A stretch of DNA of 64,000 nucleotides. It comes from Erysipelothrix rhusiopathiae. Its GTDB lineage: Bacteria > Bacillota_I > Bacilli_A > Erysipelotrichales > Erysipelotrichaceae. Under the pieces are notes generated by a model. That model did no database searches. It saw only the letters and a list, made by a program, of their open reading frames with translations, and was not told the DNA's origin. A program made the translations under genes and the position numbers. Positions 6,725 through 9,101 of the stretch are shown piece by piece (the first letter of the stretch is position 1; every line of letters starts with the position of its first letter). The stretch spans positions 1,488,001 through 1,552,000 of the forward strand of contig NZ_LR134439.1 of the NCBI RefSeq assembly GCF_900637845.1, read 5' to 3'.

Positions 6725-8017
6725 ATGGACTTTGTAACTGAAATACAAGGTAAAAACTGCTCTCGATATGATAAGCGAAAGCTCTGCAGTTTTGACATGG
6801 AATTTATTGACTTACCAACCTATCCGATCATTCATCAAGCGTCACGCTTTCTCTTTATCAAAAAAGGTGAAGGAACGATTTTGATTGACGGGATAAGTTA
6901 TCCTATTAGAGAAAATTCTCTTATCGCAATTCTTCCTTGGGAAATAACAGAAATTGAGAGCGTGGCCAGGCCCCTCCAATTTGTACGCATAATCTATAAT
7001 ATCGATTACATTTCTCAAGCAATGAAGTGTGGGGCGAATCCAAGTAATGATATGATTGCAGTGACGGGACCTTTAGAAAAAAATCACGTGATTCAATGTA
7101 CTTCAAAAGAAGCTGATGTTATCTTGAAAGTTTTAGATGAGATTCGTGATGAGGTCGGGGTTGAATCAAACCTCGATATTCCTGAAGAGCAAAGTTTATC
7201 AAAACTTTATGTCACCAATAAACTTATTGAACTTGTAATTCATTTCCAACGTTTTGCGAATAAGAAGGAATGTAAGATGAAGTCGAATCAAGAAATTGAA
7301 CTCGATCATCGCTATAAGATTTTCAAATATTTATATTCACATTTAAGTGAAAAATTAACACTTTCTAAACTATCCGGATTTTTCTATATGAGTGAATCTG
7401 CAATTAGTAAGTACATTTATGATGTAACTGGCTTATCCTTCACCGCATTACTTAATGAGATGCGTATTGTGAAGTCGTTAGACTTACTGATTTATACAGG
7501 CATGTCACTGAGTGAAATTGCGGAATTAACGGGGTTTGCGGATGCGTCGCACTTATCAAAAGTATATAATGAACGCATCGGTACAACGCCAAATGAATAT
7601 CGTAAAATTTACCGTAATATTCACCAAGTTATAAATGATAAAGAATTAAGTCTTTCGTATCAGGTGTTAAATTATATGTATAACAACTACAAAGAAAACT
7701 TAAAAATTCAAGAAGTTGCGGATAAGTTCAACATTCCACTTGTAGAACTTAACCTCATTTTGCTTTTCCAAGTAGAAATGAACTTTGAAGACTTCTTGAA
7801 TTATCTTAGGATCAATAAGTCGTGTGAATTACTCTTATCTACCGATTTGGCGATTGTCGATATTGGCATTGCGGTAGGTTATAATAACAGTAAAACATTT
7901 CATCGTAATTTTGTGAAACAAAAGAACATGACCCCAGGAATATTCCGTAAGTCGGTAACGATGCCAACAAGTACGGTTGAAGATCCTGTAGAATTTATCC
8001 GAGCAACGATTTCTTAA
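6725..8017 (+). CDS. AraC-family regulator with two HTH domains
   Basis: A 430-aa transcription regulator. Residues ~15-120 look like the cupin sensor domain of AraC proteins (KKGEGTILIDG region). The first AraC HTH pair spans ~195-295 (LTLSKLSGFFYMSESAISKY, then GMSLSEIAELTGFADASHLS and TPNEYRK). A second, more diverged AraC-type HTH spans ~310-410 (LKIQEVADKFNIP, then DLAIVDIGIAVGYNNSKTFH and TPGIFRK). Usual members have one such unit and ~280-300 aa. GGGGG at 6714-6718 precedes the ATG. It lies downstream of the arc operon in the same orientation but has its own transcription signals. Its target is unknown; the arc operon or the cluster displaced by the IS are guesses. Confidence 0.8.
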   Translation: MDFVTEIQGKNCSRYDKRKLCSFDMEFIDLPTYPIIHQASRFLFIKKGEGTILIDGISYPIRENSLIAILPWEITEIESVARPLQFVRIIYNIDYISQAMKCGANPSNDMIAVTGPLEKNHVIQCTSKEADVILKVLDEIRDEVGVESNLDIPEEQSLSKLYVTNKLIELVIHFQRFANKKECKMKSNQEIELDHRYKIFKYLYSHLSEKLTLSKLSGFFYMSESAISKYIYDVTGLSFTALLNEMRIVKSLDLLIYTGMSLSEIAELTGFADASHLSKVYNERIGTTPNEYRKIYRNIHQVINDKELSLSYQVLNYMYNNYKENLKIQEVADKFNIPLVELNLILLFQVEMNFEDFLNYLRINKSCELLLSTDLAIVDIGIAVGYNNSKTFHRNFVKQKNMTPGIFRKSVTMPTSTVEDPVEFIRATIS

Positions 8018-8043
8018 AAAGACTGTCTTTGAACAGTCTTTTT
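8017..8043 (+). terminator. Intrinsic terminator, left copy of the IS target duplication
   Basis: The hairpin AAAAGACTGT/ACAGTCTTTT (loop CTTTGA) ends the AraC gene. The identical 27 bases recur at 9075-9101 on the other side of the IS, so the whole terminator is the target-site duplication. Confidence 0.88.
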
Positions 8044-8049
8044 CTTTTA

Positions 8050-8988
8050 TCAAATCTCAACCGCACCACTTTTACTTTTATTAAAGTCTATCTCATACGC
8101 CGTTTTGAAGTCAAATATTTTTCGTGGCATTGAGTTAATTTTAAAGCAAATATCATCAAGATATTGTTGTGCTATATCATACATCGATTTTCCTTTCGGT
8201 ATAAACCTTCGCACGATTGCATTTGCACGTTCATTGGTTCCACGTTGAAAAGAACAGTAAGGATCACACTTGTATAGCTTCACACCCAACCGCTTGGCTG
8301 TAATTCCTAATGTTTTAAACTCAAGTCCGTTATCTACTGTTATCGATTTGGTTGTTATATTGTTTTCTTCAATAAATTTCCGAATTAAGTTTGATGTGTA
8401 ATAGTCGTATCGATATTCTGCTTTTATAAGCCAGGTCATTCTTGAACATCGGTCCACAATAGATATAATCGCTGTAGATTCATGTTTCTTACCGATGATA
8501 GAGTCGATTTCGAGATGACCAATCTCGTTACGTTCCTCAATATATTTAGGCCTTAAGCTAATTGGAAGTACAGTTTTTTCTTCTAAGTTCCATCTCAAAT
8601 GATTCATCATTCCACTAATTCTCTTTTTACGTTTTCGTCGCTTATAACACATTCTATTTGGTTTGATTTCAAGTTTACCTTGGTTAATCCAATTATAGAC
8701 TTGCTGCGATGTAACACACGGTTTATACGGATGATATCGTTTATAGTTACTCAAACACACTTCTACCGAATGAACTTTAGGATCATAGTGAGAATGCAGA
8801 TAATCAATTAAGTGAGAATACTTTTCTCGAATATCAATCTTTCGTTTTTTGTAGACATTATTTTTATATCTAGAAATCGTAGAATGAGATATGTTGAGTT
8901 TACGTGCTGCTTTGCGCATAGAGTAGCCGATGCTTAATAGAATATCAATTTGGTCTTTCATTTTTTTATCTAATTGTTTATACTTCAT
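8050..8988 (-). CDS. IS30-family transposase (copy 1)
   Basis: A 312-aa DDE transposase. The N-terminus has an HTH (SMRKAARKLNISHSTISRYK, ~23-42) that would bind the terminal repeats. The catalytic core starts near residue 150 with HLEIDSIIG (first Asp), then SITVDNGLEF (second Asp, ~220) and QRGTNERANAIVRRFIPKG (Glu, ~255), matching the IS30 pattern. The stop codon lies inside the terminal inverted repeat. The start is preceded by AAAAGGAGCTCC. It differs from copy 2 by about 7 of 312 residues; both appear intact. Confidence 0.95.
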   Translation of the reverse strand: MKYKQLDKKMKDQIDILLSIGYSMRKAARKLNISHSTISRYKNNVYKKRKIDIREKYSHLIDYLHSHYDPKVHSVEVCLSNYKRYHPYKPCVTSQQVYNWINQGKLEIKPNRMCYKRRKRKKRISGMMNHLRWNLEEKTVLPISLRPKYIEERNEIGHLEIDSIIGKKHESTAIISIVDRCSRMTWLIKAEYRYDYYTSNLIRKFIEENNITTKSITVDNGLEFKTLGITAKRLGVKLYKCDPYCSFQRGTNERANAIVRRFIPKGKSMYDIAQQYLDDICFKINSMPRKIFDFKTAYEIDFNKSKSGAVEI

Positions 8989-9033
8989 ATGGAGCTCCTT
9001 TTAGTCGGGTGGGCTCCTTTTATTATACAAAAA

Positions 9034-9059
9034 CAACCGCACCTTGTGTGGTGCGGTTG
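9034..9059 (-). terminator. IS-borne terminator upstream of the transposase
   Basis: CAACCGCACC (9034-9043) and GGTGCGGTTG (9050-9059) form a 10-bp stem that reuses the terminal repeat. Read on the minus strand it is followed by TTTTTG, directly upstream of the probable transposase -10 (TATAAT). It would block read-through into the transposase from outside. The same structure is at 50259-50284 in copy 2. Confidence 0.6.
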
Positions 9060-9074
9060 AGATTTGAATTTAGG

Positions 9075-9101
9075 AAAAGACTGTCTTTGAACAGTCTTTT
9101 T
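9075..9101 (+). repeat. Right copy of the IS target duplication (a terminator)
   Basis: Identical to 8017-8043, hairpin and T-run included. It lies directly after the right end of the IS. Confidence 0.88.

Follow-up and report, generated by a model that had tools for sequence, protein, structure and literature searches.

Terminator hairpins as target duplications of an IS30-family insertion sequence in Erysipelothrix rhusiopathiae and its relatives

The window analysed here is a stretch of 64,000 nucleotides of Erysipelothrix rhusiopathiae (contig NZ_LR134439.1, positions 1,488,001 to 1,552,000), and it holds two copies of one insertion sequence (IS) of the IS30 family, at 8043-9074 and 49267-50299. 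Comparison of these copies with their relatives shows, as far as sequences can tell, that the targets of this IS are intrinsic terminator hairpins at gene ends, and that the target duplication matches the hairpin in length, with 22-43 bp in Erysipelothrix. In the window, both duplicated sequences are terminator hairpins, each lying at the stop codon that closes the upstream gene. The genome of the window, a single contig of 1.77 Mb, is indicated as G000, and a sister Erysipelothrix genome as G001; the features of the two copies are the following:

8017..8042, no strand: left duplication of copy 1, 26 bp, the whole terminator hairpin of the AraC-type gene upstream, exact repeat of 9075-9100
8043..9074, minus strand: IS30-family insertion sequence, copy 1, 1032 bp, with the ends TCTTTTATCAAATC...GATTTGAATTTAGG common to the copies of the genus
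8043..8069, plus strand: left terminal repeat of copy 1, 27 bp, imperfect, TCTTTTATCAAATCTCAACCGCACCAC
8050..8988, minus strand: transposase of copy 1, 312 aa, IS30 family, DD(33)E, from NCBIfam NF033563 and the catalytic residues
9034..9059, minus strand: inner hairpin CAACCGCACC-GGTGCGGTTG, followed by TTTTTG on the minus strand, from fold and sequence
9048..9074, minus strand: right terminal repeat of copy 1, 27 bp, imperfect, CCTAAATTCAAATCTCAACCGCACCAC on the minus strand
9075..9100, no strand: right duplication of copy 1, the whole terminator hairpin with the original T-run after it, from the exact repeat and the fold
49242..49266, no strand: left duplication of copy 2, AAAAAAACGACTTCGGTCGTTTTTT, a 25-bp hairpin, present only once in G001, where the site is empty (L106)
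49267..50299, minus strand: insertion sequence, copy 2, 1033 bp, 94% identity to copy 1 by sequence comparison
49274-50212, minus strand: transposase of copy 2
50300..50324, no strand: right duplication of copy 2, a 25-bp hairpin

At copy 1, the repeat AAAAGACTGTCTTTGAACAGTCTTTT at 8017-8042, identical to 9075-9100, folds end to end into a 10-bp stem with a 6-nt loop (-10.1 kcal/mol) accompanied by a T-run, and it is directly 3' of the stop codon of the AraC-type gene, which ends at 8017; this agrees with a preliminary description of the stretch, which had recognized a complete terminator hairpin with its T-run. The same description gave the direct repeat as 27 bp: the duplication of a hairpin stands, but the exact length is 26 bp, and 27 is reached only by counting an ambiguous T. 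This base (T8043 or T9101) can be assigned to the target or to the IS, and every copy of the genus begins with TCTTTTATCAAATC; T8043 is attributed to the IS because two sites in G001 (L038 and L041) show the T arriving with the element. Regarding the ends, the core terminal repeat is TCAAATCTCAACCGCACCAC, with a perfect core of 20 bp within the 27 bp, and the genus copies have seven more bases beyond it (TCTTTTA at the left end, ATTTAGG at the right end); since these outer bases are common to the genus copies, the terminal repeats are considered imperfect and about 27 bp long, and the IS 1032-1033 bp.

The repeat at copy 1 is a true target duplication, because at this position the IS is absent from related Erysipelothrix genomes and the terminator is single: G001, which is 96% identical upstream, G005 and G011 all display the single terminator, and the site of copy 2 in G001 also has a single hairpin. 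In the opposite direction, when the two flanks of each G001 insertion are joined, nine of the ten align without interruption to G000, with a single hairpin each, and at two of these nine empty sites the identity is 99.6% across the junction, over 280 bp. On the basis of the empty sites, both a chance repeat and a pair of pre-existing terminators were rejected; an empty site already provided with two terminators was not found for the IS of the window. As for the tenth site (L110), G000 has a 0.93-kb non-IS insert between two terminator copies. It was evaluated as another IS and rejected, being a gene of unknown family: L110:440-1460 (G000:C1:512838-513739) contains the gene of a 255-aa probable lipoprotein, with no Pfam match, between two near-identical terminator copies.

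Exact duplications flank all 12 copies (two in G000 and ten intact ones in G001), and their lengths are 26, 25, 22, 24, 25, 22, 23, 29, 31, 24, 41 and 43 bp. Each of them is a single end-to-end hairpin with at most two unpaired bases, found at one end, and in 12/12 copies the dyad and the midpoint of the duplication are no more than 1 bp apart. Chance is excluded because 11 of the 12 duplications pass a strict end-to-end hairpin test, versus 1.8% of length-matched random segments of the window. Apart from the flanking A and T runs, the target sites have no common sequence; all the Erysipelothrix cuts are located in A/T tails, and the orientation of the IS among the ten G001 copies is 5:5, with no strand bias seen in this small sample. 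The coincidence of duplications with hairpins, which the preliminary description had left for other copies to bear out, holds at all 12, and neither short nor non-hairpin duplications occur among the intact copies of G000 or G001.

All 12 hairpins overlap the stop of an open reading frame (ORF) or sit at most 17 nt from one, mostly between convergent genes, and the stop codons within the hairpin are retained on both sides after insertion. The hairpin at L038 contains the stops of the two convergent ORFs, so that only a full duplication keeps both ORFs intact. To the left of the IS, its end TCTTTTA converts the truncated T-run into runs like TTTTTCTTTTA; at copy 1, it is the T-rich outer end of the left terminal repeat that completes the T-run of the left hairpin. 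On the right side, rightward transcription retains the original T-run, and leftward transcription meets a weaker run, TTTTCCTAAAT. The earlier proposal that the duplication rebuilds the terminator on both sides agrees with the sequence, with a hairpin on each side and the left T-run restored by the IS end. Given that stop codons are retained and T-runs are rebuilt or retained, it is plausible that the insertion is nearly harmless to the neighbours.

The comparison of transposase relatives covered 395 genomes of the class as well as further genome contigs. Altogether, 51 duplications of 11-43 bp were compared, which belong to Erysipelothrix, to uncultured Bacilli and to mycoplasma-type genomes. 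Fifty of these sites fold, 38 of the 50 with no more than one unpaired base, at one end only, and over the 51 sites the length of the duplication correlates with the number of base pairs in the stem (r = 0.94). In four hairpins the arms are unequal by 1-2 nt and the duplication still ends at paired positions; pairing is favoured over a measured distance from the loop because of these four cases. Judged from such comparisons, the stagger is shown to follow the hairpin and its pairing. Of the 22 loci from uncultured Bacilli and Erysipelotrichaceae having a repeat of at least 13 bp, 20 show a hairpin duplication, where the 20 include one locus from Mesomycoplasma ovipneumoniae and three that coincide with separately scored sites. 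Hairpin duplications are also found in the mycoplasma-type genomes G039, G062, G318 and G277, in which TGA is read as a residue; in two others, G332 and G363, the hairpin flanks are swapped.

Exchanged flanks also occur in several G005 copies, where one hairpin is to the right of one copy and to the left of another (L052/L055, L055/L063, L063/L062 and L061/L054); recombination between IS copies does occur, because these copies have exchanged their flanking hairpins, and the left/right exchange at L052, L054, L055, L061, L062 and L063 is pointing to genome rearrangement via IS recombination. In the same genome, eleven IS copies at L053-L063 (e.g., L053:1001-3427) have a nested IS3-type element (OrfA/OrfB) near IS position 953-956; the extra 1.4 kb was evaluated as a passenger gene and rejected in favour of this nested element. 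The 2.4-kb composite of IS and IS3-type element appears to have spread as a unit, and intact composites carry hairpin duplications.

As for the enzyme, the transposase of copy 1 matches NCBIfam NF033563 with 219.4 bits (cut-off 80), which places it in the IS30 family, and it has the N-terminal helix-turn-helix (HTH) and the DD(33)E triad of this family: an alignment of ten relatives shows no variation at D162, D219 and E253, and 33 residues separate D219 from E253. Pfam HTH_38 and rve were both matched, the latter under its own cut-off. A sequence search of the PDB gave no informative relative of the transposase; the catalytic domain is predicted to have an integrase-like fold, and the structure search led to IstA and retroviral integrases.

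In a maximum-likelihood tree of the transposases (29 rows), the elements with hairpin duplications, full or inner, form one clade with support 100/98, composed of a mycoplasma branch and an Erysipelothrix/Bacilli branch; the type of duplication was assigned for part of the rows outside this clade, and three rows inside it are untyped, owing to a contig end or an unreadable repeat. The lineage of G015, which cuts inside the hairpin, groups with the Erysipelothrix/Bacilli branch with moderate support (94/88). Outside the clade, 4-bp duplications are found in G023, G035, G184 and G142, and G351 (L198-L200, L216 and L217) has a distant IS30-family element with non-hairpin duplications of 12-14 bp. 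By this phylogeny, hairpin duplication is a shared habit of one IS30 sub-clade. In G184 and G142 (L195-L197 and L201-L202), the 4-bp duplication (TGCA, ATGC and similar) is exactly between the T-run and the A-run of convergent terminators; their differing hairpins were considered as swapped hairpin duplications, and this was rejected upon inspection.

The preferred explanation, with a probability of about 0.7, is a structure-guided targeting, in which terminator hairpins at gene ends are targeted and the exact hairpin is duplicated via attack at the foot of a cruciform. The target hairpin would be extruded from duplex DNA as a cruciform, and at the stem foot the synaptic complex would attack a pair of phosphates related by symmetry, which are expected to be close across the four-way junction, though tens of bases apart linearly. 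Gap repair would then copy the whole hairpin to both sides of the IS, so that each side would receive a complete terminator, with the T-rich IS end finishing the left one. A wider proposal seems to us evenly balanced between right and wrong, namely that a sub-clade of DDE transposases picks its targets by DNA secondary structure, with a symmetric attack like that of junction resolvases and a stagger set by the folded target, and that this trait is ancestral, from Erysipelotrichaceae to mycoplasmas.

Some points weigh against the cruciform mechanism. The extrusion in vivo of short, A/T-tailed hairpins is only assumed, and the mycoplasma-type IS30 element of G015 (L156-L160) duplicates only the inner 11-19 bp of the terminator hairpin, dyad-symmetric, so the cut is not always at the hairpin foot. 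Some relatives have no detectable repeat (e.g., L227, L233, L240 and L248), and at L245 and L249 the repeat is not a hairpin; some of the loci lacking a hairpin repeat probably owe this to contig ends, decay or recombination between copies. Finally, retroviral integrases and IstA, which the predicted domain resembles, make short fixed staggers.

Among the rival explanations, the main one proposes that a transposase dimer reads dyad-symmetric duplex DNA, in its arms or its A/T tracts, and cuts a variable distance apart with no cruciform. The position of every Erysipelothrix cut in A/T tails agrees with it, as does the occurrence of IS30 relatives from outside the clade at symmetric sites, like those of G184 and G142 with 4 bp between T-run and A-run; however, a spacing of 11-43 bp that follows stem pairing, even past bulges, is difficult to reconcile with a rigid dimer acting on linear duplex, and we regard this explanation as possible but rather unlikely. 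A target folded in transient single-stranded DNA, such as the lagging-strand template or a transcription bubble, as for IS200/IS605, is far less probable: terminators do fold in single strands and, from the position of the sites at gene ends, would be transcribed, but a whole hairpin can be directly duplicated only if the element is joined to both strands, the transposase is of the DDE and not of the HUH type, and the balanced orientation in G001, a small sample, gives no sign of replication-linked entry.

The remaining alternatives deny either the targeting or the duplication. If the IS inserted anywhere and only the harmless insertions at terminators persisted, every site would be a gene end, as is the case, but positional selection cannot match duplication and hairpin in length and centre at every site, which makes this survivorship very improbable. 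Hardly credible is that the repeats are no duplications, with the IS placed between pre-existing terminators or carrying the hairpins itself: tandem or convergent terminators do exist, and the IS has its own inner hairpin at 9034-9059, but the repeat sequence differs at each site and the empty sites are single-copy, which refutes this at both window sites and at nine in G001.

Regarding other features of the IS, the hairpin at 9034-9059, situated between transposase gene and right end, may be an inward terminator and would then shield this gene from outside transcription; an Rfam search of the region gave no match. In addition, G000 has a mini-element of about 56 bp made only of both IS ends (L034:5184-5239, about 331628-331683), with a terminator hairpin adjoining one side.

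In the usual DDE scheme, the length of the duplication is a constant of the enzyme; here, it varies over 11-43 bp and follows the target hairpin. The way in which the stagger is set is directly testable, because a tractable transposase from Erysipelothrix or uncultured Bacilli is at hand instead of a mycoplasma enzyme with reassigned codons. Hairpin targeting would also explain how many IS copies can be present without gene breakage, and hairpin repeats around an IS30 gene offer a signature for the annotation of such elements.

Other IS30-family elements likewise have the HTH and DD(33)E, and some of them, too, occupy sites that are symmetric or next to a terminator; the duplication made by IS30 of E. 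coli is 2 bp. The precedent for hairpin duplication is reportedly IS1630 of Mycoplasma fermentans, as described by Calcutt, Lavrrar and Wise in 1999 (J Bacteriol 181:7597). Four copies of IS1630 have duplications of 16, 23, 25 and 26 bp, and its terminal repeats are 27 bp (PMC3317919). ISMhom-1 of Mycoplasma hominis, also of the IS30 family, has 27-bp terminal repeats and inserts at gene 3' ends with reading frames preserved; it differs in that its repeats are reported as 6-15 nt, in a paper without hairpin analysis (PMC7648426). In E. rhusiopathiae, strain-specific insertions of 1060, 1066, 1062 and 1073 bp are annotated as ISErh2 or ISErh4, IS30-like (PMC12017102); compared by size only, these elements of the same genus and family fit an IS of about 1032 bp plus a variable duplication.

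Like IS1630, the IS described here belongs to the IS30 family and has imperfect terminal repeats of about 27 bp, and it duplicates inverted repeats of variable length and sequence, in 12/12 copies, at 22-43 bp and with empty sites. Unlike IS1630, it resides in the Erysipelothrix host group, with no mycoplasma code, its duplications reach 43 bp, and the Erysipelothrix case has empty sites and a phylogeny behind it. The preliminary description had seen the habit of IS1630 in another lineage: family, repeats and hairpin duplications agree, but it is the host lineage that is another one, the IS30 sub-clade being probably the same; the window transposase is a sister lineage of the mycoplasma elements with hairpin duplications (clade 100/98), in a tree with no row identified as IS1630. 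In conclusion, the phenomenon is already known from IS1630, and what is new is the host group, the proof from empty sites, the association with gene-end terminators, the wider range of lengths and the extension to a property of a clade, which turns a single mycoplasma case of 1999 into a rule for a whole clade, documented at 51 sites and backed by proven empty sites.
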